DNA of 43,322 bases from Kosmotogales bacterium (lineage in GTDB: Bacteria; Thermotogota; Thermotogae; Petrotogales; Kosmotogaceae). The translations under genes and the position numbers were made by a program. Below, one piece after another: positions 1,322-36,066 of the stretch; the stretch's first letter is position 1; each line of letters begins with the position of its first letter. Below the pieces are notes generated by a model. It saw only the letters and a list, made by a program, of their open reading frames with translations, did not search any database and was not told where the DNA came from. The stretch is taken from assembly GCA_030156385.1 (NCBI GenBank), contig JASGMR010000008.1, forward strand, positions 1-43,322. Reading direction: 5' to 3'.

Positions 1322-3428
1322 ATTTCATTCTCAGTATTCTCATAGTGTTGAATATCGCTATGAGAGAAACTCCCACATCTGAAAAAACGGCCTCCCACAT
1401 CGTCGCTATTCCCGCAATTCCGAACGAGATAAAAATTCCTTTTATAACGAATGAAAGGACGATATTCTGTAGAACTATCTTCTTTGTCTTTCTAGAAATT
1501 CTTATCGCCTGTGGAATTTTTGATATTTTGTCATTCATTATAACGACATCCGCGTTGTTTATCGAAGCTTCGGATCCGATTCCGCCCATCGCTATTCCGA
1601 TGTCGGCCCTTGCGAGTACCGGCGAATCGTTCAGACCATCACCAACGAAAGCCGCAGTTCCTTTGTTTTTGTTGTGTTCAATAATTTTTTCAATTCTTTT
1701 TACTTTATCCTCGGGGAGTAAATTTGTATAAGCTTCCGTGATATTCAATTCCTTTTTCACGTAGTCGGTCGCTTTCACATTGTCGCCTGTCAGGATGGTT
1801 ATATCATTTATCCCGAGTTCCTTTAATTCTTCAATCGCCTCGACCGAATCGGATTTTATTTCGTCTGCAATGACTATATAACCGCAGTAAGTATTGTTTA
1901 GCACCACATTCACCACGGTTTCATTATTCAGACATTTATCGTGTTCAATACTGTATTTGTGAAGAATTCTATCGTTTCCAACGATTATTTCATTTTTTTT
2001 GTAAGTTGCCTTTATGCCGTGTCCGCTTATCTCCTGAATATTTATTTTGTCTATATCATCGATTTTCTTGCCGTATTTTTCCAGTATTGCCTTCGCGATC
2101 GGGTGATTGGAATGAGATTCCGCTATTGAAGCATATTCGAGGACTTCTTCTTTTCCACACGCACCGAACGATTTTATTTCCGTCACTCTGAAAATTCCCC
2201 TGGTCAAAGTACCGGTTTTGTCGAATGCGATTCTGTTTACCTTTGCCAGCGAATCTATAAAATTAGAGCCCTTAATCAGAATCCCATCCTTCGAGGCTCT
2301 GCCAATTCCACCAAAATATCCGAGGGGAATACTTATTATGAAAGCACAGGGACAGGATATCACGAGAAGAATCAGAGCTCTGTTTACCCATTCGGAGAGG
2401 GTTCCATAACCAAAGAGAGGTGATATCAGGGCTATGCCCAGGGCACCGAACACAACGGCTGGGGTGTAGTATTTTGCGAATCTCTTTATGAATTTTTCTG
2501 TCCTTGTTTTTTTGTTTGCGGAATCCTGTATGAGTTCTATTATTTTCCCGGCGGATGAATCTTCATATTTTTTCGTGACTCTGAGAATTATATTCGAGTA
2601 GAGGTTTATCGTTCCTGCATATATCGCATCACCTTCAGATACGTTCTTCGGAATCGATTCCCCGGTCAGGGATGCATTGTCAACCTGAGAGTTACCGTTG
2701 ATAATCTCCCCATCGGCGGGAATTCTTTCTCCAGGTTTTACGGAAATTCTGTCACCAACATTCAGTTCATCCGGAGATATTTCTGTGAGTTTCCCGTTTT
2801 CTATTTTGTAAGCCTTTTCGGGCTTTAATTTGATAAGATCGTTGATGGAGTTCCTCGAATTGTCGAGCGCCAGACCTTCAAAAAATTCCCCAATATTATA
2901 AAATATCATAACGGCGAGCGCCTCAGGATATTCTCCAATTATGAAAGCTCCTATGGTAGCCACACTCATTAAGAATTTTTCGTCAAATATTTTACCCCTT
3001 CTTATGTTCTTCAACGAGGATATGAGCACATCTTTTCCCGCGATAAAATACCCGATCACATAAAAGGTCAGCGATAGATATTTAAAAAGGGTGTTCGAAA
3101 AAAAGATTCCGGAAATTGAGAAAAATAACAGAATGGATATTGAAATTATGAGATGACGTTCTTTTTTCAGCTCTTTTATTATGTTTATTCTATCAGGAAT
3201 GGGTTCGGAGCCGGTTATTTCGTGAAGCTCCACGTCTGGTTCGATATTTTTGATACGTTTTATAGTTCTCTCGATGTCGTTCGATTCAATTTGAATTATC
3301 CCGCTTGCAAAATTTAAATTTACATTTTTTATCCAGTCTTCTTTATTCAGACTTTCCTGTAAATTTGCCGCACAGTTCGCGCAGTCCAGATTCTTTATTC
3401 TGTATGTTTTTTTATTGTTCTTCGACAT
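1320..3428 (-). CDS. Heavy-metal P1B-type ATPase, probably Zn2+/Cd2+ exporter
   Basis: A 702-residue efflux pump using ATP to export divalent metal across the cytoplasmic membrane. The order is a heavy-metal-associated domain with C-x2-C at residues 16-19, transmembrane helices, the actuator T-G-E-S (about 255-258), the membrane C-P-C (about 359-361), the phosphorylation motif D-K-T-G-T (about 403), the class-specific S-x-H-P (about 440-443), G-D-G-x-N-D (about 596) and a last helix carrying an Asp in S-D-V-G. C-P-C together with that Asp fits the Zn/Cd/Pb (P1B-2) class rather than copper pumps. Start ATG 3428 is chosen because the Cys motif then sits at the normal distance from the N-terminus; the upstream Met at 3470 would add 14 poorly conserved residues. 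It begins inside the 3' end of the arsR gene (17-base overlap), so repressor and pump are co-expressed. Confidence 0.93.
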   Translation of the reverse strand: MSKNNKKTYRIKNLDCANCAANLQESLNKEDWIKNVNLNFASGIIQIESNDIERTIKRIKNIEPDVELHEITGSEPIPDRINIIKELKKERHLIISISILLFFSISGIFFSNTLFKYLSLTFYVIGYFIAGKDVLISSLKNIRRGKIFDEKFLMSVATIGAFIIGEYPEALAVMIFYNIGEFFEGLALDNSRNSINDLIKLKPEKAYKIENGKLTEISPDELNVGDRISVKPGERIPADGEIINGNSQVDNASLTGESIPKNVSEGDAIYAGTINLYSNIILRVTKKYEDSSAGKIIELIQDSANKKTRTEKFIKRFAKYYTPAVVFGALGIALISPLFGYGTLSEWVNRALILLVISCPCAFIISIPLGYFGGIGRASKDGILIKGSNFIDSLAKVNRIAFDKTGTLTRGIFRVTEIKSFGACGKEEVLEYASIAESHSNHPIAKAILEKYGKKIDDIDKINIQEISGHGIKATYKKNEIIVGNDRILHKYSIEHDKCLNNETVVNVVLNNTYCGYIVIADEIKSDSVEAIEELKELGINDITILTGDNVKATDYVKKELNITEAYTNLLPEDKVKRIEKIIEHNKNKGTAAFVGDGLNDSPVLARADIGIAMGGIGSEASINNADVVIMNDKISKIPQAIRISRKTKKIVLQNIVLSFVIKGIFISFGIAGIATMWEAVFSDVGVSLIAIFNTMRILRMK

Positions 3429-6509: not shown

Positions 6510-7253
6510 CTAACCCAATTTTATTATGTATTTGTAGTTTTTTGCATCATATCTTCCTACAACAAATTCAACTGGCTGGTTTTTTCTGTTGTAGCTGATT
6601 CTTTCAAAATATAAAACCGGATCCCCGATGGATATATTCAGTAATTTCGCATATTTTTTGTTCGCGAGCCTCGCTTCAATAACTGCATCACCGGAAACTA
6701 TCTTTGTATCATACTCCTCGAAAAGTTCATAGAGAGAGCCTGTGAAGTTATGCGGTATTTCGATGTTCAATCTTTCGGGAATATAGGATTCAAAAAATAC
6801 AATTGGAAATATTTCTTCGTGTCCGTAGAGTCGGGAATACTTGAGTATCATTTCATTTTTTTCCATTTTCAATTTTATCCGGAGCATTTCATCCGGGACG
6901 ATTTTTTCAAGACTCACAAATTTTCTGATGGGAGTGTGCCCGGAAGATTTCATCTGCTCGGTAAAACTTCTTGGATAGGTAAGGGGTTCCTCCATGGGAG
7001 TTCCCTGCCTTATCGCCGTTCCCTTTCCTCTGATTCTCGTAATATGACCGGATTGTTCCAGTAAATCCAGAGCTTTTCTAATCGTTGCCCTGCTCACACC
7101 AAAAATCTGCATCATCTGAGATTCGGTTGGGAGCATTTCACCATGGTTTTCACCGGAAATCTTCTTTTCTATTATCTTTTGTATCTGGTAATAAAGCGGG
7201 ATCGGACTGTTAGCTTCTAAATAAATTTTTTCATTCGGATCAATAATTTGCAT
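6510..7253 (-). CDS. GntR/HutC-family transcriptional regulator with UTRA domain
   Basis: A 247-residue regulator. The N-terminal winged helix (about residues 15-80) shows P-L-Y-Y-Q-I and L-P-T-E-S-Q-M, then the recognition segment F-G-V-S-R-A-T-I-R-K-A-L. A UTRA ligand-binding domain occupies about 95-240 and ends in the usual strand F-V-V-G-R-Y. UTRA domains commonly bind sugar phosphates. It sits in mid-operon between the FGGY kinase and RbsD genes, giving the operon a second regulator beside the LacI protein at its head. No operator for it was recognised. Start ATG 7253 has AAGG six bases upstream. Confidence 0.9.
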   Translation of the reverse strand: MQIIDPNEKIYLEANSPIPLYYQIQKIIEKKISGENHGEMLPTESQMMQIFGVSRATIRKALDLLEQSGHITRIRGKGTAIRQGTPMEEPLTYPRSFTEQMKSSGHTPIRKFVSLEKIVPDEMLRIKLKMEKNEMILKYSRLYGHEEIFPIVFFESYIPERLNIEIPHNFTGSLYELFEEYDTKIVSGDAVIEARLANKKYAKLLNISIGDPVLYFERISYNRKNQPVEFVVGRYDAKNYKYIIKLG

Positions 7254-7268
7254 AATTTACCTTCTCTT

Positions 7269-8783
7269 TTAATTAGATAATTCTTCAAAAACTCCTTCTA
7301 GTGCATTATAAGCATTATTAAATGTTTTGTAAAGCTCCATGTATTTTTTGTGATTCCAGGGATTTGGTTTTATAAATTTGACATCTTTTATGAACTTGCT
7401 TCCCTCTTCGTAGGTGATTATTCCCGCACCCACTCCGGCTATGATGGCAGCTCCCATAGAAGTGGCCTCGTCCAGGAACTGAGGAATCGTGATCTCTTTG
7501 TTGAAAATATCCGCGAGAATGTGTTGCCAGTTTCTTCCCTTGGCTCCACCACCGATGACCCTTATTCTTTGAAAATCGGAAATATTTTCCAGGATATCGA
7601 GGATTATTTTCAGATTGAATGTCACCCCTTCGAGCACCGCTCTCAACATGTGAGATTTGTTATGTGAAGCCTTCAATCCGATGAATGATCCCTTCGCATT
7701 CGGATTCCAGTGCGGGCTCCTTTCACCCATTATGTAGGGTAGAAAGAGGAGATTGTCGGAGCAGGGTTGTATTTTGTCTATCATATCATCCATTATCGAG
7801 AATACACTGATTCCCATATTTTTTGCGTTAACTTCTTCAAGACCACACAGTGTATTTTTTATCCAGTTGTATGAGGCACCGCCTGCCTGCATCGTTCCCG
7901 TGGGGCAGAATAACCCCTTGACCGTATGACAGAAATTGAACGTTCTCATTTTTTCGTCGAAGTAAGGTTTGTCCGAGGTGGTACTCAGCCACGAAGAAGA
8001 ACCGAGATATGCGTAGATCTCTCCCGCACTGTTTATTCCGGCACCGGTTGAGGCGCATGCTCCATCACCACCGCCCTGAAAGATCATCGTATTTTTCGAG
8101 AGTCCGAGTTTCTCTGCGATTTCGGGTATTATTTTACCCGTAAAGAAAGTGGACTCAACGATTTCGGGAAGTTTTTCAACATCTATATCCAGAACATCAC
8201 ATATTTCCTTCGACCAGCAAAGATCGTTCACATCAAAAATGTTGGTCATCGAAGCATCCGAATAATCCGTTCTGAATGTGCCGGTCAGTTTCATTACGAT
8301 GTAATCTTTTGCATTCAGGAACTTGTAGGTTTTATTGTAAATATCAGGTTCGTTTTCCTTCATCCAGGCTATTTTTTCTCCGGAGAAGGTTGGAGAAACC
8401 CGCGTTCCGGCAATTTTATACACTCTTTGCATGCCGTATTCTTCGAGTTTTTTTGTTTGCGGAATACTTCGCTGATCGGCCCATATAATGGATCTTCTCA
8501 GTAAATCACCGTTTTTATCCACCGCTACCGCACCCATCATCTGTCCGCTGAAACTCATTGAAACGAGATCATTCGGATTGATACCGGTTTTTTTCATCAG
8601 TAATTTAGTGGACTGCTCGACGGAATTCCACCATTGATTTCCATCCTGTTCCACCATGTTATAACCGGGATAATATGTTTTATATTCGGAGAATTCACTT
8701 CCGACGAGCGTGCCGTCTTTTCTATATAATGTGGCCTTATTCCCCGTGGTTCCGAGGTCGTGGGCCATTAAATATTCTATCAT
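7269..8783 (-). CDS. FGGY-family carbohydrate kinase (xylulokinase-like)
   Basis: A 504-residue sugar kinase with the usual FGGY length. Visible are the N-terminal phosphate loop D-L-G-T-T-G-N-K (residues 9-16), S-F-S-G-Q-M-M-G near 78-85, I-I-W-A-D-Q-R-S, the catalytic aspartate in Q-G-G-G-D-G-A, and the C-terminal ATP-site loop I-G-G-G-A-K-G. The layout is closest to XylB (D-xylulose kinase), but FGGY kinases vary widely in substrate (xylulose, erythrulose, ribulose, dihydroxyacetone). In this operon a ketose produced by the zinc dehydrogenase is a likely substrate. The ATG directly follows the stop of the PfkB kinase gene, with GGAG upstream. Confidence 0.9.
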   Translation of the reverse strand: MIEYLMAHDLGTTGNKATLYRKDGTLVGSEFSEYKTYYPGYNMVEQDGNQWWNSVEQSTKLLMKKTGINPNDLVSMSFSGQMMGAVAVDKNGDLLRRSIIWADQRSIPQTKKLEEYGMQRVYKIAGTRVSPTFSGEKIAWMKENEPDIYNKTYKFLNAKDYIVMKLTGTFRTDYSDASMTNIFDVNDLCWSKEICDVLDIDVEKLPEIVESTFFTGKIIPEIAEKLGLSKNTMIFQGGGDGACASTGAGINSAGEIYAYLGSSSWLSTTSDKPYFDEKMRTFNFCHTVKGLFCPTGTMQAGGASYNWIKNTLCGLEEVNAKNMGISVFSIMDDMIDKIQPCSDNLLFLPYIMGERSPHWNPNAKGSFIGLKASHNKSHMLRAVLEGVTFNLKIILDILENISDFQRIRVIGGGAKGRNWQHILADIFNKEITIPQFLDEATSMGAAIIAGVGAGIITYEEGSKFIKDVKFIKPNPWNHKKYMELYKTFNNAYNALEGVFEELSN

Positions 8784-10440: not shown

Positions 10441-10839
10441 TTATCTTTTTATTTCTGCTATTTCCAATAATTCCCCGCCGGGGCCATTGAAAGTGTTATA
10501 TAATGTTTTCCCATTGAAAACGCTTATGGGTTCCTCCGATTCGAGTTCTACTCCTTTATCTTTCAGATAGTTCATGGCTTCATCTATATCGTCCACTAGA
10601 AAGGAGATGTGTTGAATGTGTGATTCTTCAGTGGCTGCAAAGTTTTTTTCGTTTGAATTATCGAAGCACATCAATTCTAATTCACATCCTTTTCCCTTTA
10701 AAAACGCGACGGTCAGATTTTTTTCGGGGAGCCTTTCTTCAAAATCGAGTTCGAGACCGATCAATTCCATATAAAATTTTTTCGCTTCCTCTAAGTTTGG
10801 AACCTCTATTCCGATATGATAAAAATTATTGAGCAGCAT
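10441..10839 (-). CDS. VOC (glyoxalase/dioxygenase superfamily) metalloprotein
   Basis: A 132-residue protein with two beta-alpha-beta-beta-beta modules. The four expected metal ligands are in place: H8 in Y-H-I-G-I-E-V, a Glu in E-L-E-L-M (E53 or E55), H77 in Q-H-I-S-F and E126 in G-E-L-L-E-I. The family includes glyoxalase I, epimerases and lyases. Triose-producing aldolases in the same operon can give rise to methylglyoxal, so detoxification is one possible role; an epimerase or isomerase acting on a pathway intermediate is another. Its ATG overlaps the end of the permease gene by 14 bases. Confidence 0.82.
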   Translation of the reverse strand: MLLNNFYHIGIEVPNLEEAKKFYMELIGLELDFEERLPEKNLTVAFLKGKGCELELMCFDNSNEKNFAATEESHIQHISFLVDDIDEAMNYLKDKGVELESEEPISVFNGKTLYNTFNGPGGELLEIAEIKR

Positions 10840-11827
10840 TTACTTTTTTCCCCTTTCCAAAAATTTTCGGTCTTCTTCCTCTGCTCTTGAAGAACGTATC
10901 GAAGAAAACGGCCAGAACGATGATCGCACCTATAACCATCTGCATTATGAAAGGATCGATTCCCATCAGATTTCCACCGTTTTTGATCGTCTGTATTATC
11001 AGAGCACCGAGAACTGTTCCGAGAGCGGTACCCACTCCACCGGTCATACTCGCTCCACCGATGACAACCGAAGCTATAGCATCGAGCTCATAACTCTGCC
11101 CCGCAGTCGGGACACCTGAAGCCAGTCTTGTTGAGAGCATCAAACCTGCTATACCACAGAGTACCGCACCCACTATATAGAAGAAGTACATGTTCAATCT
11201 GATATTTATACCGGACAATCTTGCCGCCTCCGGATTACTACCTATAGCGTAAAGGTTTCTTCCGAACTTGGTATATTTCATAACCAGTCCCGCTATAACG
11301 GCTATCACAATCCATGTCCACGCAAGAGCGGGAAGTCCCAGGAAATCCGCGGATGAGAAGGCTTTGAATTCTTTTGGCAAACCAGTTATCATACGTCCGT
11401 TCGAAATATACATGACAAGTCCCCTCACCGCCGTCATCATACCGAGAGTGGCTATGAAGGGGGGGACCTTCCCGTCATGAATCGCAATACCATTGACCAA
11501 ACCAACCGCAGCCGATGCCAGCAATGAAATAACGATCGCAAGGGGGATTGACATACCTATGCTTAAATTCGAGGAAGTCATGGTTGCGAAAACCATACCG
11601 GACAAACCGACAACCGAACCTACCGATAAATCGATACCACCCGTTATAATGATGAATGTCATGGCCACCGCAACAACACCGTTTATTGCCGCCTGTCTGA
11701 CGAGATTTGTTATATTAAGCGAGCTTGAAAATCTCCCACCCGTTACAATAGCCAGGAAAACCCACATTAAAATTATTATAATGATAAGATTTCTTTCCGC
11801 AAAGGTCTTTCTGTATTTTTTAGCCAT
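10826..11827 (-). CDS. Ribose-type sugar ABC transporter, permease
   Basis: A 333-residue integral membrane protein of the RbsC/XylH family with about nine hydrophobic segments. Characteristic stretches are I-I-T-G-G-I-D-L-S-V-G-S near residue 60, P-P-F-I-A-T-L-G-M near 123 and V-V-I-G-G-A-S-M-T-G-G-V-G near 255. It forms the membrane channel of an importer with the ATPase encoded just upstream and the lipoprotein-free binding protein at 14127-15086. Its ATG overlaps the ATPase stop (ATGGCTAA). Confidence 0.94.
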   Translation of the reverse strand: MAKKYRKTFAERNLIIIIILMWVFLAIVTGGRFSSSLNITNLVRQAAINGVVAVAMTFIIITGGIDLSVGSVVGLSGMVFATMTSSNLSIGMSIPLAIVISLLASAAVGLVNGIAIHDGKVPPFIATLGMMTAVRGLVMYISNGRMITGLPKEFKAFSSADFLGLPALAWTWIVIAVIAGLVMKYTKFGRNLYAIGSNPEAARLSGINIRLNMYFFYIVGAVLCGIAGLMLSTRLASGVPTAGQSYELDAIASVVIGGASMTGGVGTALGTVLGALIIQTIKNGGNLMGIDPFIMQMVIGAIIVLAVFFDTFFKSRGRRPKIFGKGKKVNAAQ

Positions 11828-13352
11828 TTAAAACTTCCTCCTTCAAATCAGCATTGCTATAATATTTCATTGCAAGTGTCAGCAACAATTCTTCGGAAAA
11901 ATCTTTTCTTTCCACTTCACCGGCGACTCTTCCGTTGGATATAACGATAACTCTGTCCGACATTCCCAGGAGTTCCGGAAAGTATGAGGATATTAATATT
12001 ATTCCCTTGTCCTGTTCGAGAATTTTTCCAAACAGTTTATATATCTCGGATTTTGTACCGACGTCTATTCCCACTGTAGGTTCGTCGAAAATGAGAACGT
12101 CCGGATTTTTTGCCAGCCATCTTCCTATTATTACTTTCTGCTGGTTTCCACCGCTGAGTTCCGAGACCTTTTGAAACGGTCCACCGACTTTTATCGAAAG
12201 TTTTTCTATATATTCGTCGGCCAATTTAGCCGTTTTTCTGTAATTTATAATTCCGGCATTTATCGATCTTTCATAATTTATAATATTGATATTGAAATCA
12301 ACATCCTGGGGAAGAAACAACCCTAAATCCTTTCTATCTTCGGGCAAATATCCCAGTCCGTTTTTTAACGAATCGTTCGGTTTTTTTATTTTTACTTCGT
12401 TACCATTTATATGAATGGTTCCTCTTTGAATTTTATCCACACCGTAAACTGCTCTTGCGATTTCTGTTCTACCTGCTCCAACCAGTCCAAAGAAACCAAG
12501 AATTTCTTTTCTTTTTACGCTGAAGGAAATATCTGTAAATTTTTCACCCGAGAGATTTTCAACTCTCAATATCTCTTTTCCAGGTTCAAATTCTTTTTTG
12601 GAATACATTTCGGAAATTTCTCTTCCAACCATCAACGGTATCAATGATTCCTCGTCAAGTGTATTGCTGGGAACGGTATCGACTACCATTCCATCCTTAA
12701 GAATCGTTATGGTATCACAAACCTGGAAAACTTCTTCTAAATTATGTGAAATATAAATTATCGCAATTCCTTTTTCTTTCAATTCCTTTATTATTCTGAA
12801 AAGAATTTTCGTTTCGCTTTTCGTGAGCATCGCAGTCGGTTCATCGAATATAACCACTTCAGGATTATGCCACAGAGCAGCAGCGATTGTTACCATTTCA
12901 CTTTCTGCAACACTCAACTCACTGAGGTTCTTTCTCACGGGTATATCCAGGCCGAGGTCTTTCATAAATTTTTCCGATTCAGCATACATTTTTTTCCAGT
13001 TTATAAAACCACCTTTTCCCGGTTGTGCACCGAGGAAAAAGTTTTCGGCAACCGTTAAATCCTTTGCAAGCATTACTGCCTGATAGACGGCGTAAACCCC
13101 CATGTTTTTAGATATGAGGGGTGAATTTCTTTTGATCTGTTTTCCGCATATATATAAATCGCCACGGTCTTTTGTGTAGGCTCCTGTGACTATTTTTATC
13201 AAAGTTGATTTTCCCGCGCCGTTTTCACCGACCAATGCCCTGACTTCACCTTTTCTCACTTCCAACGATACGTCGGTAAGAGCTTTAACGGCCGGAAACT
13301 CTTTATTAACTTTTTCAATCTTGAGAGCTACTTCTCCAAACTTTTCCGGCAT
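11820..13352 (-). CDS. Ribose-type sugar ABC transporter, ATP-binding protein
   Basis: A 510-residue protein with two fused nucleotide-binding domains, as in RbsA/MglA. The first has a canonical Walker A (G-E-N-G-A-G-K-S-T, near residue 43), an altered signature L-S-V-A-E and Walker B V-V-I-F-D-E-P. The second has the usual degenerate Walker A G-L-V-G-A-G-R-T-E, signature L-S-G-G-N-Q-Q-K and Walker B V-L-I-F-D-E-P. Start ATG 13352 is chosen because AAGGAG stands eight bases upstream; the GTG at 13361 overlaps that site. It lies directly after the DeoC-like gene. Confidence 0.94.
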   Translation of the reverse strand: MPEKFGEVALKIEKVNKEFPAVKALTDVSLEVRKGEVRALVGENGAGKSTLIKIVTGAYTKDRGDLYICGKQIKRNSPLISKNMGVYAVYQAVMLAKDLTVAENFFLGAQPGKGGFINWKKMYAESEKFMKDLGLDIPVRKNLSELSVAESEMVTIAAALWHNPEVVIFDEPTAMLTKSETKILFRIIKELKEKGIAIIYISHNLEEVFQVCDTITILKDGMVVDTVPSNTLDEESLIPLMVGREISEMYSKKEFEPGKEILRVENLSGEKFTDISFSVKRKEILGFFGLVGAGRTEIARAVYGVDKIQRGTIHINGNEVKIKKPNDSLKNGLGYLPEDRKDLGLFLPQDVDFNINIINYERSINAGIINYRKTAKLADEYIEKLSIKVGGPFQKVSELSGGNQQKVIIGRWLAKNPDVLIFDEPTVGIDVGTKSEIYKLFGKILEQDKGIILISSYFPELLGMSDRVIVISNGRVAGEVERKDFSEELLLTLAMKYYSNADLKEEVLNG

Positions 13353-13364
13353 ATACGCCACTCC

Positions 13365-14054
13365 TTAATCTTTATATTTTTCGTTGTATTCATTAAGTAT
13401 TGATAAACTGGCACTCGCACCAAAAATATTTGCACCTGCATCAAGATATTCTTCTACCTGGGGCAGAGTTTTTACTCCTCCGGATACTTTGATTTTTTTA
13501 TCGCCTTGCGTTACGGAATAAATTAGTTTCACGTCATTTACAGTCGTTTTTCTTGGTCCAAAACCCGTACCAGTCTTTATAAAATCTATGGTCGGTATTT
13601 CCATGATCACTTCTGAAATCTTAACTATCTCATCGTCCGTCAGCCTTGATGTCTCTATTATTATTTTTGCAATCCTGTCGAATTTTTTTACTCTTTCGGA
13701 AATCGTCTTCAATTCTTGTTTAACATCATCCCATTTTTCAGATTTCACAAGTGAAATGTTTGCGACCATATCAAAATCTGTAGTCTCTTTACCGAGATTT
13801 GCATAAAAATCTATTTCATTCAATTTCAGCTCTGTTGGAACATAACCAAACGGAAAGCCGACTCCTATATTCACACCGACATCGGTCCCTTTAACTTTTT
13901 TAACAGCATATGGAACCGCGTACCATGGAACAACAACGTTCCTGAAATTGTATTCCAATGATTCATCAATGATATCTTCTATCTGTTGCCAGGTAGCTTC
14001 CGGTTTAAGTAAAGTGTTATCAAATAATCTGTTGAAATTTTCTATTTTTTTCAA
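13365..14054 (-). CDS. Divergent DeoC-family (deoxyribose-phosphate) aldolase
   Basis: A 229-residue class I aldolase-fold protein. The Schiff-base lysine lies in F-I-K-T-G-T-G-F (K160; K-T-S-T-G-F in DeoC), the second catalytic lysine in I-K-V-S-G-G (K189) and the aspartate in D-F-D-M-V-A-N (D95). Departures from DeoC are N13 in N-T-L-L-K-P instead of His, loss of the usual Cys near residue 42 (V-V-V-P-W-Y) and K-T-G-T-G-F for K-T-S-T-G-F. Carbonyl chemistry is therefore intact while the substrate site has changed. It could cleave 2-deoxyribose 5-phosphate or a related sugar phosphate. TTG 14054 is the start, with GGAGG six bases before it. The gene sits between the binding-protein and ATPase genes. 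Confidence 0.82.
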   Translation of the reverse strand: MKKIENFNRLFDNTLLKPEATWQQIEDIIDESLEYNFRNVVVPWYAVPYAVKKVKGTDVGVNIGVGFPFGYVPTELKLNEIDFYANLGKETTDFDMVANISLVKSEKWDDVKQELKTISERVKKFDRIAKIIIETSRLTDDEIVKISEVIMEIPTIDFIKTGTGFGPRKTTVNDVKLIYSVTQGDKKIKVSGGVKTLPQVEEYLDAGANIFGASASLSILNEYNEKYKD

Positions 14055-14083
14055 AACAAGCCTCCAAAAATTATTAAAAATAT

Positions 14084-14110
14084 GCAGTCTGGTATTAAAA
14101 ACCAGACTGC
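14084..14110 (-). terminator. Hairpin after binding-protein gene, partial terminator
   Basis: A perfect nine-base stem (14084-14092 with 14102-14110) directly after the substrate-binding protein gene, followed on the minus strand by ATATTTTTAATAATTTTT. It probably ends or slows part of the transcripts, so that more binding protein than ATPase and permease is made. Confidence 0.75.
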
Positions 14111-14126
14111 TAAAAATTATTTATTA

Positions 14127-15086
14127 TTAATATCTCTGTCTTGTGAATGGATCAAGAATTCCTGTTGATTCATCAACAACATCAGGAGTTATAACGTAAA
14201 CACCCGTGTCGAAATATGAAGGGAATGCTTCTCCTTTGAGAGCCATGAATGCGAACATAACACCCTTGTAACCCATTCCGTGTGGATCCTGTACGATTAA
14301 ACCTTTCAATGCACCTGATTTGACTGCTTCAACTTCCAGAGGATCGGAGTCGTATGCAACTGCAATAACCTTTTCTCCTAAACCCTGTTCTTCAATGACC
14401 CTTGCAACACCGTCACCACTGTGGTTGTTGTCTGCGAAGAATCCTACAATATCATTGTTTGCAATGAGTAAGTCTTCTGTGGCATTTGCTCCTTTTGCGA
14501 TATCGTTGTCTATATATCTTGTAGGAAGAATTTCAAGATCGGGAGCAATTTCGGCCATTCTCGCTTTGAAACCATCGTCTCTGTCTACTAATACCTGTAC
14601 ACCTGCCATAGCACTGATGAGACCGATTTTACCCTCTAATGCAATGCCTCTGTCTTCCAGATTCTTTACCAACAAATCCGCTGCCAACGATCCACCTTTT
14701 GCATTATCCGTTGCCAGGAATGCCGTATAACCTGTGTCGTATACGAAGTTATCGATTAATACAATAGGAATTCCTGCTTCGTATGCATCGTTTAAAATTG
14801 CCGAAGGAGCGTCCGAACTCGTTGATGACATAACAATAGCATCCGGCATCGTGCTTACAACATTTTCCAGAATAGCAATTTGCTGATCGATATCGGATTC
14901 AGATGGGGGTCCGTATACTGTTACGTTTATTGCGCCATCCAGATCGTACTCTGCATTTTTTGCACCTACGATTGTGTACTGCCAGAAATCTGAATCAGTT
15001 GCTTTAACTATAAAGGCGATTTCATATGCAGCAAATGTACTAACGGCTACTAAAGCCAATACTAACAATACTAAAAACTTTTTCAT
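14127..15086 (-). CDS. Ribose-type sugar ABC transporter, substrate-binding protein
   Basis: A 319-residue periplasmic-binding protein of the RbsB type. A signal peptide occupies about residues 1-19 (K-K-F-L-V-L-L-V then a hydrophobic core ending in S-T-F-A); there is no lipobox cysteine, so it should be soluble or peripheral. The mature protein starts with E-I-A-F-I-V-K-A-T-D-S-D-F-W, the strand and aromatic clamp typical of the family. Hinge-region motifs include F-L-A-T-D-N and F-F-A-D-N-N. It follows the LacI gene by 27 bases with no separate promoter seen. The start has GGGAGG upstream. Confidence 0.92.
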   Translation of the reverse strand: MKKFLVLLVLALVAVSTFAAYEIAFIVKATDSDFWQYTIVGAKNAEYDLDGAINVTVYGPPSESDIDQQIAILENVVSTMPDAIVMSSTSSDAPSAILNDAYEAGIPIVLIDNFVYDTGYTAFLATDNAKGGSLAADLLVKNLEDRGIALEGKIGLISAMAGVQVLVDRDDGFKARMAEIAPDLEILPTRYIDNDIAKGANATEDLLIANNDIVGFFADNNHSGDGVARVIEEQGLGEKVIAVAYDSDPLEVEAVKSGALKGLIVQDPHGMGYKGVMFAFMALKGEAFPSYFDTGVYVITPDVVDESTGILDPFTRQRY

Positions 15087-24674: not shown

Positions 24675-25742
24675 TTATTTGTACAGATATATTTTATGCA
24701 TTCTGTATTTTCTCGTTCCCAAACCGATTTTTTCCGCATGTTCAAGCTGGTATTCCCAGTTGGTGTTGGGGTGTATTTTCCTGAACGGATCGTAGCCTAT
24801 CTTTTCAATGAGCAAATCGATGCAGGCCTGATCCAGTGCCACGGGGTCGGTGCTTATTGCTATTCCCACATTCGGTGCTATTGGAGGTTCATTGTTTGGC
24901 CAGCAATCGCAATTTGGAGAAACGTTATTAATAAACGAGATGAAAAATCCTCTTTTGTTGACGAGTGTTGCCTTGGTGTATTCGGCCATCTTTTTAGACA
25001 GCCCCATTCCTGAAGAGTTAAAGTCGGGATAAATGGCCCCGTAGTTGCACATAGCTATACACTGTCCGCAGCCGACACATTTATCGTAATCTATTTCAAC
25101 GACCGGATCGACTCTGACAGCACCGTAGTTGCAGTTTCTTTCGCACATTCTGCAACTGACACATTTCTTCTGGCTGTATTGAGGTTTTGAATCCGAATGC
25201 TGTTCCATTTTTCCAGCTCTGGAAGCCGCTCCCATACCTAAATTTTTAATAACACCGCCAAATCCGGTCTGTTCATGTCCCTTGAAGTGAGTGACGGCTA
25301 TTATCACATCCGATAAGGCTATTGCAGATCCAATTTTGGCATCTTTGACATATTCCCCGTTTACGGGCACTTTCACTTCATCCGAACCTCTTAGCCCGTC
25401 CGCAATGATTATCGGTGCTCCGATGGTTTGATATGCGAAGCCATTCAATACGGCCGTGTTGAGGTGATTAACAGCATCCGATCTGTTGCCCCTGTAAAGA
25501 GTGTTTGAATCGGTAACGAAGGGTTTGCCGCCGAGTTCTTTTACTTTATCAACTATCACACGAACATAGTTCGGCCTAACATATGCAAGATTTCCGTATT
25601 CTCCAAAATGAATTTTTATAGCCGTTAAATTGTTGCTATCTATAACATCATCAAATTTTGCTTTATTCATAAGGTTGGATAGTTTTTTCAATAAACTCAT
25701 CGATGGTTTCGTTGAAAAATCTGTAAAATATACTTCAGACAT
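24675..25742 (-). CDS. DUF362 protein with two [4Fe-4S] ferredoxin motifs
   Basis: A 355-residue iron-sulfur protein. A DUF362 domain flanks a bacterial-type ferredoxin insert with two cluster motifs, C-V-S-C-R-M-C-E-R-N-C and C-V-G-C-G-Q-C-I-A-M-C, at about residues 190-240. DUF362 signatures H-F-G-E-Y-G-N and F-K-G-H-E-Q-T-G-F-G-G near residues 45 and 155 are clear. An electron-transfer or cofactor-related role is likely, but the partner is unknown. ATG 25742 has GAGGAGGGG upstream. The small membrane protein gene follows after one base. Confidence 0.88.
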   Translation of the reverse strand: MSEVYFTDFSTKPSMSLLKKLSNLMNKAKFDDVIDSNNLTAIKIHFGEYGNLAYVRPNYVRVIVDKVKELGGKPFVTDSNTLYRGNRSDAVNHLNTAVLNGFAYQTIGAPIIIADGLRGSDEVKVPVNGEYVKDAKIGSAIALSDVIIAVTHFKGHEQTGFGGVIKNLGMGAASRAGKMEQHSDSKPQYSQKKCVSCRMCERNCNYGAVRVDPVVEIDYDKCVGCGQCIAMCNYGAIYPDFNSSGMGLSKKMAEYTKATLVNKRGFFISFINNVSPNCDCWPNNEPPIAPNVGIAISTDPVALDQACIDLLIEKIGYDPFRKIHPNTNWEYQLEHAEKIGLGTRKYRMHKIYLYK

Positions 25743-25884: not shown

Positions 25885-25920
25885 AGTTCATAATATATTT
25901 GTTTTTTAGGAGGAATCTTT

Positions 25921-27276
25921 TTGAATATAAAAAGAGTTTTTATAAGTGTTTACGATAAAACCAATATTGAAATTTTATGCTCCTTTTTAATTTCTCAGGG
26001 AGTCGAGATAATTGCTACAGAAGGAACTGCAGATTATTTATCCGGTAAGGGACTCGAAGTCTTAAGAAGTGAAGAATATACCGAGTTTCCTTCGATCCTT
26101 GACGGAACGATAAGAACTCTTCATCCTAAAATAATCGGTGGTATTGTCGGAAGTATAGACAATCCAATTCATAAAAAAGAAATGTCGGAGCAAAGTATAT
26201 CCAATGTCGATATGGTTATCATAAATACAATACCTTTTGAAAAGATCGTTGAAAAGACCGTCGAAGAAGAGAACCTGTTATCAAAAATAGACGTATCGGA
26301 CGCCTCTCTCCTGCTGGCGGGTGTCAGAAACCTCAGAAATGTTGTGAATGTCTGTGATCCCAAAGATTACGATGAGATCATAAGAAGTATAAATTTTTGT
26401 GGTGATGTCCCCCTGCACGAAAGAAGAAAATTCGCTTTAAAGGCCCTTTATTATGTTATAAATTATATTTCATCGGTACATAAACATTTATCCGAAATCT
26501 TTGCCTCTGAGAAGTATGAATATCTTTTGCTGGAGAATATATCAGGAATATTCACGGATCTTTCCTTTTCCACGAGAGCGGATTTACTCAAAATTGAAAA
26601 TATTGAGGGATTGCTTGACAATGTGCAGAATGGAAATTTGATCATACCTCTCGTGAAGGCAAATATAGAAAATACTTATGTCTTTATGAAACTTTATTAT
26701 CTGCTGCCGGACCTGTGCTGCTATATTGAAAATGGGAAAATTATCGATGCTTCCATCAAAAAAAATTTCGATCTCGATTATGATTTCGGCGATACGATGT
26801 TCGCCTCCACTTTCACGATAACCGGCGAATTCATTCAAAAACTTTATGAAAGAGGTATAAAAAATTTTTGCGGCACCTTTGACCTCGATGCTGTGAAATT
26901 CGCAAAGGAAAAAGGGATAAGCTTCATTACGATTCCTGAAAGAGAAAATCTCAATATTTCAAAATGGCAGTACGATAATTTTGGAGATTACATAATAAGA
27001 CAGCCAGGTAAGGATTTCCACAATAAATATCAAAATTTGCTGGTTGATGAATTATTTGCTATTGCACTGGCAGAAATTTCAAAAAGTTACTCCATCGCCA
27101 CAGTGAGTGACGGGAGGCTCAAAAAAATTTATCACAATTTAACAAAGTCAGAGTTAAACGAAATTATTGACAATTTTGAATCGCTTGAAAGTTGTGTGAT
27201 AGCGGTTAAATGTGAAGATGGTCGTATAAAAGAAAAGATTGAATCTCTCAATCCGCTTTCCGTTTATTTGATTTAG
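25921..27276 (+). CDS. PurH-like protein lacking key catalytic motifs
   Basis: A 451-residue protein built like PurH (IMP cyclohydrolase plus AICAR transformylase, the last two steps of IMP synthesis). The N-terminal MGS-like domain is plain: I-S-V-Y-D-K-T, A-T-E-G-T-A-D-Y-L, R-T-L-H-P-K-I-I-G-G-I. However, of four cyclohydrolase residues known from human ATIC (Lys66, Tyr104, Asp125, Lys137), the matching positions read R65, I104, D124 and R136. The C-terminal half lacks both R-Y-G-E-N-P-H-Q and the transformylase K-H-x-N-P-C-G motif, while a degenerate copy of the family's late segment remains (A-S-T-F-T-I-T-G-E for S-D-A-F-F-P-F). No frameshift or early stop is present, so the gene is maintained. 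A regulatory or structural role, or an altered reaction, is possible. It stands alone next to the SRP RNA gene. Confidence 0.8.
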   Translation: MNIKRVFISVYDKTNIEILCSFLISQGVEIIATEGTADYLSGKGLEVLRSEEYTEFPSILDGTIRTLHPKIIGGIVGSIDNPIHKKEMSEQSISNVDMVIINTIPFEKIVEKTVEEENLLSKIDVSDASLLLAGVRNLRNVVNVCDPKDYDEIIRSINFCGDVPLHERRKFALKALYYVINYISSVHKHLSEIFASEKYEYLLLENISGIFTDLSFSTRADLLKIENIEGLLDNVQNGNLIIPLVKANIENTYVFMKLYYLLPDLCCYIENGKIIDASIKKNFDLDYDFGDTMFASTFTITGEFIQKLYERGIKNFCGTFDLDAVKFAKEKGISFITIPERENLNISKWQYDNFGDYIIRQPGKDFHNKYQNLLVDELFAIALAEISKSYSIATVSDGRLKKIYHNLTKSELNEIIDNFESLESCVIAVKCEDGRIKEKIESLNPLSVYLI

Positions 27277-27313: not shown

Positions 27314-27586
27314 AGCACCATGCTAGGTGGGGAGTTAGCGGTTCCCTGTACTCGAAACCCGCTTTATGCGAGACCGAAGGTTTTCTGAGGCCCGTGTAGG
27401 TAAAATACGGGTAACCGGAAGGCGTCGAGGGTTGGGTCTTACGCAACAAAAACTCATGAATCTGGTCAGATCCGGAAGGAAGCAGCCATAAGTGAAACTT
27501 TTTGTGTGCCGTAAGGGCGCTCTGCCTGAGTCGGAAGGTTATTCCGCTTTGTTTACACCTGTCGACGAAAAATGCGTGGTGCTTTT
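27314..27586 (+). ncRNA. ffs: Signal recognition particle RNA, large bacterial type
   Basis: About 270 bases with all parts of a large (Alu-containing) bacterial SRP RNA. The Alu domain near the 5' end holds GGGGAGTTAGCGGTTCCCTG, and the S-domain helix 8 holds GGTCAGATCCGGAAGGAAGC (27464-27483), the most conserved stretch with its GGAA tetraloop and Ffh-binding internal loop. The 5' end GCACCATGC pairs with the 3' end GCGTGGTGC to close the molecule, followed by TTTT. It works with Ffh protein in co-translational targeting of membrane and secreted proteins. Its 3' end abuts the stop codon of the convergent PAS-LuxR gene. Confidence 0.96.
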
Positions 27587-32574: not shown

Positions 32575-34071
32575 ATGGAAGATTTTTTAATTAAAACAAA
32601 GGGAATTTCAAAGGAATTTTCTGGTGTAAGAGTTCTCAATAATATTGATTTTGAATTAAAAAAGGGTGAAATCCTGGGACTGATCGGTGAAAATGGTGCG
32701 GGTAAATCTACGCTTATGAAAATAATAAGTGGGTTATATTTTCCCACCGAAGGCGAGATTTTTTTCGAAGGGGAAAAAGTCGTGATCAATTCTCCCTTTG
32801 TTGCGAAAAAACTGGGCATAAGCATTATCCCTCAGGAGTTCAATCTCATAAATCATCTGAATGTTTATGAAAATATTTTCCTTGGAAATGAAAAAAGGAA
32901 AAACAAAATAGTCCTTGATAAAAAGGCTATGCGAAAAAAGACAAAGGAACTCATGAACAAACTTAAAACTGTGATCGATCCGGATACAGTGATAGAAGGT
33001 CTGAGTGTTGCACAGAAACAAATGGTTGAGATAGCGAAGGCGCTTTCCCGTGATTCGAAATTACTCATACTGGACGAACCAACTACTGTTTTGACGATCA
33101 ATGAAATAGAAATTCTTTTTGATTTAATGAGAAATTTGAAAGATCATGGCGTTTCCATGGTTTATATTTCACACAAACTCGGCGAAGTTAAAGAAATTTG
33201 TGACGAAGTGATGATATTGAGAGATGGTAATTTCGTTTCAAAAGCGAATACTTCCAAAATAAGTGAAAAAGAAATGGCTGAAAACATGGTGGGAAGGGTG
33301 CTCAGTGAAGTTTATCCTGAAAAAGTGAGCCCCGATTCCGATTTATGTTTGGAGGTGAAAGATTATTCTGTTGACAGAGTTCTCCACAACATTTCCTTTG
33401 ATTTAAAGAAGGGTGAAATTCTTGGCTTTGCGGGTTTAGTCGGCGCGGGAAGAACGGAGCTCGCCGAAACAATAATCGGAATAAGGAAAAAAAAGAGTGG
33501 AGAATTATTGATCAATGGTGAAAAGGTGGAAATAAAAAATCCATTGGATGCGGTGAATAACGGAATAGGATATTTACCTGAGGACAGGCAGGGCACAGGA
33601 ATTATCACTAATTTCGATTTAATAAAGAATACTACTTTAGTTTCATTGAGAAATTACGGTAAATTTATCATAAACAAGAAAAAAGAAAGAGAAAGAACCC
33701 GGGAATATGTAGATGAATTCAAAATACGTGCCGCTTCCCTGAAAACAAAACTGGAATTTTTCAGTGGTGGTAATCAGCAAAAAGTCTCCCTGGCAAAATG
33801 CCTGGATCCTCAACCAAAAATTATAATTTTTGATGAACCGACAAGAGGCATAGACGTTAATGCTAAAAGAGAAATATACTTTTTTATAAATGACTTAGTT
33901 AAAAAAGGGATATCTTGTATTTTTATTTCCTCCGAACTGGAGGAAATAATAGGAATGTGCAACAGAGTCGCTGTAATGAAAGAAGGAAGTCTTGCAGGTA
34001 TTCTTGAAGGAGAACATATAAATGAAAAAGAAATAATGTATTACGCTACTGGAGTAAAGGGGGCCGCATGA
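32575..34071 (+). CDS. Second ribose-type sugar ABC transporter, ATP-binding protein
   Basis: A 498-residue protein with two nucleotide-binding domains. The first has Walker A G-E-N-G-A-G-K-S-T near residue 39, an altered signature L-S-V-A-Q and Walker B L-L-I-L-D-E-P. The second has the degenerate G-L-V-G-A-G-R-T-E, then F-S-G-G-N-Q-Q-K and I-I-I-F-D-E-P. It energises the importer formed with the next two gene products. Its sequence differs clearly from the ATPase at 11820-13352, so the two systems are old paralogues, not a recent duplication. ATG 32575 has a modest AGGA upstream. Confidence 0.93.
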   Translation: MEDFLIKTKGISKEFSGVRVLNNIDFELKKGEILGLIGENGAGKSTLMKIISGLYFPTEGEIFFEGEKVVINSPFVAKKLGISIIPQEFNLINHLNVYENIFLGNEKRKNKIVLDKKAMRKKTKELMNKLKTVIDPDTVIEGLSVAQKQMVEIAKALSRDSKLLILDEPTTVLTINEIEILFDLMRNLKDHGVSMVYISHKLGEVKEICDEVMILRDGNFVSKANTSKISEKEMAENMVGRVLSEVYPEKVSPDSDLCLEVKDYSVDRVLHNISFDLKKGEILGFAGLVGAGRTELAETIIGIRKKKSGELLINGEKVEIKNPLDAVNNGIGYLPEDRQGTGIITNFDLIKNTTLVSLRNYGKFIINKKKERERTREYVDEFKIRAASLKTKLEFFSGGNQQKVSLAKCLDPQPKIIIFDEPTRGIDVNAKREIYFFINDLVKKGISCIFISSELEEIIGMCNRVAVMKEGSLAGILEGEHINEKEIMYYATGVKGAA

Positions 34072-35066
34072 TGCCGGAAGAAAAATCATTTTTTAAGAAA
34101 ATCGATATAACAAAATTGGGACCTTTGGTAGCATTGGCGATATTATTTGTAATTTCCGCTTTTGCCAGTCCCTATTTTTTACAGGTAAGAAATTTGCTGA
34201 ATATTTTAAGCCAGGTTTCTTTTACAGGAATGATAGCTCTGGGTATGACTTTTATAATCATATCGGGAGGTATCGACCTTTCCGTTGGAAGCGCCGTTGC
34301 ATTCAGCGGGGGGGTAATGATAATAGCCCTCAATGGTTTATTACAGGTCATGAGTGAACCTCTCGCTTTATTGGTTGGATTTTTAGTGGCATTGGGAGTG
34401 GGAATCGGTTGCGGTGCTCTCAATGGATTGATAGTGACTAAGGGAAGACTCGCACCATTTATAGCAACACTTGGTACTATGGCGATATTCAGATCTCTGA
34501 TATTATTTTTCGGTAATGCCGGTAACTTAACGGTCGACTTCAGATATACCATGTTAAAAGATATAGGCAGGGGAAGAACATTCGGTGTACAAAACACGAT
34601 TTGGGTCTTCCTGATATTGACAATTATACTTCAATTCGTCCTGAATAAGACGAGATATGGAAGATATGTCTGTGCCGTTGGTTCCAATGAAAAAGTCGCA
34701 AAATTCTCATCGATAAAAGTCGACAGAGTCAGATTCATGACCTACGTTATCACGGGCGCTACCGTGGCATTTGCGGCCTTTTTTGCGGCAGGAAGGATGA
34801 ATTCGATCAGCACGACACAGGTTGGAGACCAATACGAACTGGATGCCATAGCAGCGGTTGTTATAGGTGGTACACCTATGACAGGCGGTACTGGAATAAT
34901 ATGGGGAACGGTTGTCGGCGCTATAATTCTCGGAATGATCAGTAATATGCTGAATATGGTGGGGGTTTCACCATATCTCCACGGTACGGTCAAGGGCATA
35001 GTAATCATAGGAGCGGTTTTAGTTCAGGAAATTGGAAAAAGGAGTACTTCAAAATTATCAAATTAA
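34068..35066 (+). CDS. Second ribose-type sugar ABC transporter, permease
   Basis: A 332-residue multi-spanning membrane protein of the RbsC family. Family stretches I-I-S-G-G-I-D-L-S-V-G-S, A-P-F-I-A-T-L-G-T and V-V-I-G-G-T-P-M-T-G-G-T-G are present. The start overlaps the stop of the ATPase gene (ATGATG at 34068); the second ATG at 34071 is equally possible and changes the product by one residue. Confidence 0.93.
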   Translation: MMPEEKSFFKKIDITKLGPLVALAILFVISAFASPYFLQVRNLLNILSQVSFTGMIALGMTFIIISGGIDLSVGSAVAFSGGVMIIALNGLLQVMSEPLALLVGFLVALGVGIGCGALNGLIVTKGRLAPFIATLGTMAIFRSLILFFGNAGNLTVDFRYTMLKDIGRGRTFGVQNTIWVFLILTIILQFVLNKTRYGRYVCAVGSNEKVAKFSSIKVDRVRFMTYVITGATVAFAAFFAAGRMNSISTTQVGDQYELDAIAAVVIGGTPMTGGTGIIWGTVVGAIILGMISNMLNMVGVSPYLHGTVKGIVIIGAVLVQEIGKRSTSKLSN

Positions 35067-35106
35067 AAAATAGTAAGTTTCAAATTATATTTCAGGAGGT
35101 GTATTT

Positions 35107-36066
35107 ATGAAAAAAGCATTTTTACTAGTTTTAGTTGTATTATTCGTGTTCACTGCGGTTAGTCTGGCGGCAACATACAAAATTGGGGTTTCAATTCCAA
35201 CAGCTGATCACGGCTGGACCGGCGGAATCAATTATTGGGCAGCAAAAGCTATTGAAGATTGGGAAGCAAAAAGAGATGACATAGAATTTTTCCTGGTTGC
35301 TTCATCTGATCCTCAGAGACAGGTCAGTGATATTGAAGATCTCATGGTAAAAGGGATCGATGCTTTGGTTATTCTGGCACACGATTCGGCTCCTTTGACA
35401 CCGATAGTAGCGGAAGTCTACGAAGCCGGTATTTACGTTGTTTCGGTTGACAGAGGTTTGTTGTTACCCGTGCAGGATGTTTATATTGCCGGTGATAACC
35501 CTGGTTTAGGAAGAGTAGCGGGACAATGGATGGCCGAAGAGCTCGGTGGAAAAGGTAAGATAGTAGCATTAGAAGGTATCCCCTGTGTTATCAACACAGA
35601 AAGAGTAGAAGCATTTGAAGCGGAAATTGCAAAGTATCCCGGAATCGAACTTCTCGATTCACAACCAGCTTACTGGTCAGCAGACACAGGATACGAAGTA
35701 ATGTCGAATTATTTACAGAAATATCCCGAAATCGATGCCGTATTTGCACAGGATGACGATGTTTTAATAGGTGTTTTAGCCGCTTATGAAGAATCCGGAA
35801 GAGACGATATAAAAACATTCTTCGGTGGTGCGGGATCTAAAATAATGATCAAGAAGGTTATGGATGGAGATCCATTGGTAAAAGCCGATGTTACATACCC
35901 ACCTTCAATGATTGCAACAGGAATCAGTTTGGCTGTATTCGGAGTAACCGGAGAACCTTTAGTAGGATTTTACCAGCAGAAGGTTCCTTCAGAGGTTATT
36001 CTGGCTGCTGAATTGGTAACACCAGAAAATGCACATCTTTATTACGAACCTGATTCAGTATTTTAA
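35107..36066 (+). CDS. Second ribose-type ABC transporter, substrate-binding protein
   Basis: A 319-residue binding protein with a signal peptide of about 21 residues (K-K-A-F-L-L-V-L-V-V then S-L-A-A) and no lipobox cysteine. The mature N-terminus Y-K-I-G-V-S-I-P-T-A-D-H-G-W-T, with its His-Gly-Trp, differs from the ribose-type K-A-T-D-S-D-F-W of the first system and points to another ligand. Later family motifs include A-G-D-N-P-G and F-A-Q-D-D-D. AGGAGGTG lies five bases before the ATG. A strong hairpin follows the gene. Confidence 0.92.
   Translation: MKKAFLLVLVVLFVFTAVSLAATYKIGVSIPTADHGWTGGINYWAAKAIEDWEAKRDDIEFFLVASSDPQRQVSDIEDLMVKGIDALVILAHDSAPLTPIVAEVYEAGIYVVSVDRGLLLPVQDVYIAGDNPGLGRVAGQWMAEELGGKGKIVALEGIPCVINTERVEAFEAEIAKYPGIELLDSQPAYWSADTGYEVMSNYLQKYPEIDAVFAQDDDVLIGVLAAYEESGRDDIKTFFGGAGSKIMIKKVMDGDPLVKADVTYPPSMIATGISLAVFGVTGEPLVGFYQQKVPSEVILAAELVTPENAHLYYEPDSVF

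Follow-up and report, generated by a model that had tools for sequence, protein, structure and literature searches.

What does a gene do that reads as purH in its N-terminal part, keeps its frame open and lacks the catalytic residues of PurH? This question is raised by an ORF at positions 25921-27276 (+) of the window, i.e. the whole 43,322-nucleotide stretch of Kosmotogales DNA analysed here. PurH is regarded as a conserved housekeeping enzyme that nearly always has both functions, and the initial annotation proposed that this relative had lost both active sites and was being selected for a non-PurH job. As described below, its product, designated PurHL, is a member of an ancient, Thermotogota-wide family of PurH paralogs, and the window copy is, with high probability, a pseudoenzyme, predicted to keep the enzyme fold after the loss of its catalytic residues.

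The PurHL gene of the window and the canonical PurH of its genome

The reading frame of PurHL, delineated from the ORF and its orthologs, is intact, as had been stated, and encodes 451 aa starting from a TTG codon, 7 nt 5' of which lies an AGGAGG ribosome-binding site (25908-25913, +). All features of the gene given below are on the same strand. The similarity to PurH is confined to residues 3-198 (phmmer against PDB, E=1.5e-29). Within this part, residues 20-125 (25978-26295) make up an MGS-like (IMP cyclohydrolase) domain, recognised by Pfam PF02142 (48.5 bits versus a cut-off of 24.1) and by a Foldseek match to ForH (6nko), while the Pfam model AICARFT_IMPCHas scores 26.0 bits versus a cut-off of 25 and spans 60 residues only. 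Both curated NCBIfam models of PurH remain below their cut-offs (160.6 versus 402 bits for NF002049 and 147.4 versus 528 bits for TIGR00355), and past approximately residue 200 PurH is recognised by no sequence search but by the predicted fold only. The PurH length with which the gene had been credited is kept only loosely: the protein is ~50 aa shorter than the 504-aa PurH of its own genome, and the C-terminal end is missing.

The four cyclohydrolase residues of PurH are K66, Y104, D125 and K137 in human numbering (PMC3261824). In the alignment of the window protein with canonical PurHs the catalytic K66, Y104 and K137 are replaced by R65 (26113-26115), I104 (26230-26232) and R136 (26326-26328), respectively, and D124 (26290-26292), equivalent to D125, is the only one retained. 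The degenerate transformylase half (residues 211-451, 26551-27273), defined by the alignment and the predicted fold, contains neither RYGENPHQ, the position of which reads FTDLSFST, nor KHxNPCG, the stretch of which falls into a gap. On both sites the alignment thus agrees with the initial annotation.

The AF2 model of the window protein, built from 13 sequences (pLDDT 81, pTM 0.49), adopts a PurH fold, in which both the MGS-like and the transformylase folds appear to be present in an uncertain domain arrangement. The top Foldseek matches of the model are PurH proteins, aligned over the whole chain (E 9e-25 for M. tuberculosis PurH, 3zzm), with an rmsd of 10-13 A, because of which the placement of the domains is unreliable. 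The closest stand-alone fold to the N-domain is that of ForH 6nko (TM 0.84-0.87 when normalised by ForH, 28% identity), the divergence being too great to infer a common function. The MGS-like regulatory domain of carbamoyl phosphate synthetase has the same domain fold and gave weak Foldseek matches only (E ~1e-3); PurHL lacks the CPSase domains.

In the window's genome (an assembly of 138 contigs, 2.3 Mb in total and 91% complete), PF01808 matched two loci, namely the window ORF (26.5 bits) and the second, canonical purH that the initial annotation had suggested looking for. The latter, located on contig 33 (378 bits), encodes the 504-aa PurH with every PurH motif held in the alignment, in the gene order purM, purN, purH, purD; the window gene itself lies outside any purine operon, as had been noted. 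What the window protein has in common with bifunctional PurH/ATIC is the overall fold and the N-terminal sequence, and what sets it apart is the loss of three of the four cyclohydrolase residues and of both transformylase motifs, scores under both NCBIfam cut-offs, a location away from the pur operon and a separate clade. The assertion that the gene has its own promoter found no support beyond chance, nine promoter-like sites having been seen in the region versus 7.5 expected.

Several other features of the window were recorded. A DUF362-like protein with 4Fe-4S ferredoxin motifs is encoded divergently from PurHL (24675-25742, -), and a bacterial large SRP RNA (27318-27579, +; 169 bits) starts 41 bases past the PurHL stop codon. 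In addition, 10826-15086 and 32575-36066 each hold a ribose-type sugar ABC transporter cluster, close to which sugar kinases or regulators are encoded.

The PurHL family: extent, graded loss and a conserved signature

Orthologs were found throughout the phylum. Relatives of the window protein are present in 38 of the 41 near genomes, and a profile search matched 97 of the 103 Thermotogota genomes; since canonical PurH also matches both the query and the profile, the copies were separated by motifs and by a tree. In the N-domain tree, which is quick, unrooted and has some long branches (L047 and L014), a single branch (SH-aLRT 99) divides 39 PurHL rows from 19 canonical rows, and the window protein falls on the PurHL side. 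Thermotoga-type proteins stand outside this tree and were placed by the profile (E ~1e-13 to 1e-20) and the signature described below only. The family labels used here (Kosmotogaceae, Petrotogaceae-type, Fervidobacterium/Thermosipho-type, Thermotoga-type) are partly inferred, one basis being near-identity to 1zcz. Neither Pfam nor NCBIfam holds a family for PurHL beyond sub-cut-off PurH models or partial PF01808/PF02142 matches, and for the Thermotoga-type PurHL no solved structure was found, the matches being weak ones to PurH only.

The short PurH of T. maritima (1zcz, 452 aa), the nearly equal length of which had hinted at orthology with the window PurHL, was rejected as its ortholog because it carries KTLHP, DLYP, DIGG, AAAKN, RYGENPH and VKHQSPCG and represents the canonical gene of Thermotoga-type genomes. 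In one further genome (G101, L171) a canonical-type PurH is encoded by two ORFs (568-1578 and 1632-2048), which may reflect a true split, a frameshift or an assembly error.

PurHL proteins range from ~190 aa (N-domain only) to ~520 aa. All aligned canonical PurHs carry KHxNPCG and not one of the aligned PurHL rows does, and the cyclohydrolase site has been lost by degrees. Some Petrotogaceae-type proteins (L016-L021) and the majority of the Fervidobacterium/Thermosipho-type ones (L070, L071, L148-L150, L152) still have its residues intact; in many members P, R, K or S takes the place of Y104. K66 and its loop are missing from the Kosmotoga-type, most Thermotoga-type and the Mesoaciditogaceae-type PurHL, and the KTLHP stretch is wholly missing from the Kosmotoga-type and most Thermotoga-type orthologs. 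The loss of the site in Kosmotogaceae, Thermotoga and Mesoaciditogaceae PurHL forms the end of this graded series. The nucleotide-binding role offered by the initial annotation is accordingly unproven, given that KTLHP is absent from these orthologs and that the motif conserved instead is GD..L..RR.

This motif belongs to the most conserved stretch across all families, a helical core of residues 116-198 (26266-26514 in the window) that contains the signature G161-D162-V-P-L165-H-E-R168-R169 (26401-26427). Among 37 PurHL representatives of all families G161, D162, R168 and R169 show no variation at all, K174 is conserved in 97%, and E116, L165 and F194 in 95%; the window copy carries all four invariant residues. 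R168, K174 and partly G161 are common to PurHL and canonical PurH, which has other or variable residues at R169, L165, F194 and E116. The GDxxLxxRR motif (G161-D162-x2-L-x2-R168-R169) is near-invariant even where both active sites have been lost, and the strongest constraint therefore falls on the helical segment that follows the MGS core rather than on either active site. This constraint is the main evidence, at the level of sequence, for a new function that PurHL would have acquired.

Purifying selection, which the initial annotation had advised testing for, is evident in relatives of the window copy. In three pairs of PurH-less Kosmotogaceae genomes, i.e. Mesotoga-type relatives, the window copy being without a near relative, dN/dS amounts to 0.116, 0.160 and 0.077 (95% CI within 0.05-0.24), and it is lower still in the N-part of the same proteins (0.04-0.06).

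PurHL with and without the purine pathway

Ten of the 15 PurHL-bearing Kosmotogaceae genomes (G002, G003, G004, G006, G007, G010, G011, G012, G014, G015) are without a canonical PurH, and neither PurM nor PurD scores above the cut-off in them. Two of them (G002, G003) are single-contig and 99% complete; in the case of G014 and G015 the absence carries less weight because these genomes are only ~80% complete. HisF over the cut-off was found in none of the seven PurH-less genomes tested. With PurH, PurM, PurD and HisF all missing, neither of the PurH substrates, AICAR and FAICAR, is expected to be formed there. The requirement of Kosmotoga pacifica for yeast extract (PMC5217533) fits such an auxotrophy without proving it. 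The idea that PurHL recycles or senses AICAR from histidine synthesis was considered and is disfavoured, as the Kosmotogaceae tested have no hisF over the cut-off. Taken together, selection and the survival of the gene in species without purine synthesis indicate that PurHL probably has another job, which is in line with the proposal made for the window gene at the outset.

The situation is different in Fervidobacterium/Thermosipho-type genomes, where the pur operon has the order purF-purN-purH-purD-purM (purF, purN and purD were named partly by reading the sequences). The PurH of this operon is a protein of ~297-318 aa that carries RYGEN and KHQTPCG or KHQNPCG and has no cyclohydrolase domain; such transformylase-only genes are located at L162 2156-3049, L163 3412-4305, L164 3253-4209, L165 3563-4489, L166 3177-4100 and L167 3641-4573. 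A search of these genomes for PurO as an alternative cyclohydrolase found none; for the last step, the intact-site PurHL was the one candidate identified. Judging by these sequences, it is very probably the working IMP cyclohydrolase of a split PurH. Some PurHL proteins (~200 aa, Thermosipho-type) share their architecture and intact site with the PurH2-type stand-alone IMP cyclohydrolase (Archaeoglobus AF1811; PMC6797443), whereas the window copy lacks K/Y/K and has the degenerate C-terminal half. A bacterial split PurH would be an exception, as stand-alone domains of PurH are, as a rule, found mainly in Archaea (PMC3261824, PMC6797443). Four genomes of genus g30 are without PurM and keep a 200-aa PurHL, the transformylase being missing as well where tested (G081). 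In one of the pur operons (L166) a transposase-like ORF (2118-3131, -) lies between purN and the short purH.

Gene order and the possible role of PurHL

The best functional lead, absent from the initial annotation, is the linkage of PurHL to glnA and asnA. A glnA gene (TIGR00653 over the cut-off) adjoins PurHL divergently in all 14 other PurHL loci of Kosmotogaceae; in three sister-family genera (L018/L097, L019/L095, L021/L096) the two genes are neighbours in the same orientation. At the majority of the other PurHL loci in the sister family, the gene directly upstream is asnA, coding for asparagine synthetase A (NF005054 over the cut-off). The order asnA-glnA-purHL is found in two genera. The window's genome has asnA and glnA as a pair on contig 73, with PurHL elsewhere, and this pair suggests an ancestral asnA-glnA-purHL cluster. 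That the linkage to glnA has persisted through a switch in orientation speaks for a functional link, and the two Kosmotogaceae genomes without PurHL are also without GlnA. The linkage is not universal: genus g6 has GlnA and no PurHL, and G018 has PurHL (with asnA) and no TIGR00653 GlnA.

In Thermotoga-type and f3 genomes the gene beside PurHL, often overlapping it, is comF-like. In L142 (5154-6794), L143 (5213-6897), L145 (5088-6736) and L154 (5136-6411) the product of this gene, which overlaps or nearly abuts PurHL, combines a zinc ribbon with a phosphoribosyltransferase domain. Elsewhere the neighbours include genes for homoserine dehydrogenase, an S-adenosylhomocysteinase-like protein and others; since they vary between families, gene order singles out no one target. 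In one genome (G051, L170) a glnA-like gene (7169-8002) was observed directly 3' of the purine cluster that holds purH. The literature searched yielded no report of a PurH paralog associated with glutamine synthetase in Thermotogales.

The explanation we prefer, to which we give nearly even odds, is that the Kosmotogaceae form of this paralog is a non-catalytic scaffold or regulator, with ammonia assimilation as its likeliest target. The ancient PurH paralog has lost the AICAR transformylase motif in every member examined, and in Kosmotogaceae and several other families the cyclohydrolase site has gone too. The remaining protein may act through its helical core 116-198 and GDxxLxxRR, and its likeliest partners, as gene order suggests, would be the type I glutamine synthetase GlnA and asparagine synthetase A, so that PurHL perhaps links glutamine supply to purine status. 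That GlnA/AsnA are the target in the window lineage is a tentative reading of gene order, to which we give somewhat less than even odds.

The alternative that PurHL is still an enzyme, either a slow or altered cyclohydrolase or one performing a new reaction on a different phosphorylated ligand bound in the MGS-like pocket, is improbable. The pocket of PurH2 touches the ring mainly via the backbone and mostly orients FAICAR (PMC6797443), the elements SVxDK, GT and R-T-L-H are partly retained in the window copy, and the orthologs with intact sites belong to the same family. Yet in the window copy three of the four catalytic residues are replaced, the gene has been kept where KTLHP is gone, and in the auxotroph genomes neither AICAR nor FAICAR is expected.

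Somewhat less probable is a translation- or ribosome-associated scaffold. In Methanosarcina acetivorans PurH and aEF2 join two 50S subunits, with the active sites of PurH empty and its N-terminal domain mediating the dimer (PDB 9ou7; PMC12605026), which proves in principle that PurH can have a non-catalytic scaffold role and sets a precedent for such a use of its fold. The methanogen factor is, however, a canonical archaeal enzyme; the Thermotogota data show no link of PurHL to the ribosome, and the adjoining SRP RNA, seen in the window only, proves nothing.

A reading of the window copy as a relic in decay, its function lost in this lineage, is unlikely. The missing catalytic residues and C-terminal end and the move away from glnA would agree with decay, but the frame of 451 codons is open, the ribosome-binding site is strong, and the protein is ~43% identical to Mesotoga-type orthologs over 428 compared residues, with all signature residues kept. 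Least likely is an inactive, prozyme-like partner subunit of canonical PurH, suggested by the initial annotation and made conceivable by the PurH present in the window's genome, by the dimeric nature of PurH and by dead paralogs known elsewhere to activate an active partner, for the ten Kosmotogaceae genomes with PurHL and without PurH exclude it as a general explanation.

In the case of the scaffold or regulator favoured here, the most far-reaching version, which we consider speculative, is that PurHL became the cyclohydrolase of a split PurH in one family and in others a dead protein coupling GlnA/AsnA to growth via its GD-RR module and outlasting the purine pathway. PurHL represents a second PurH-derived protein kept across a phylum, grading from an intact cyclohydrolase to what would be a dead scaffold, and outliving the pathway from which it came. 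Such a series offers a natural experiment on an enzyme turning into a non-enzyme. It also carries a warning that genomes annotated with "purH" may belong to purine auxotrophs, and it makes PurHL a candidate regulator of glutamine synthetase.
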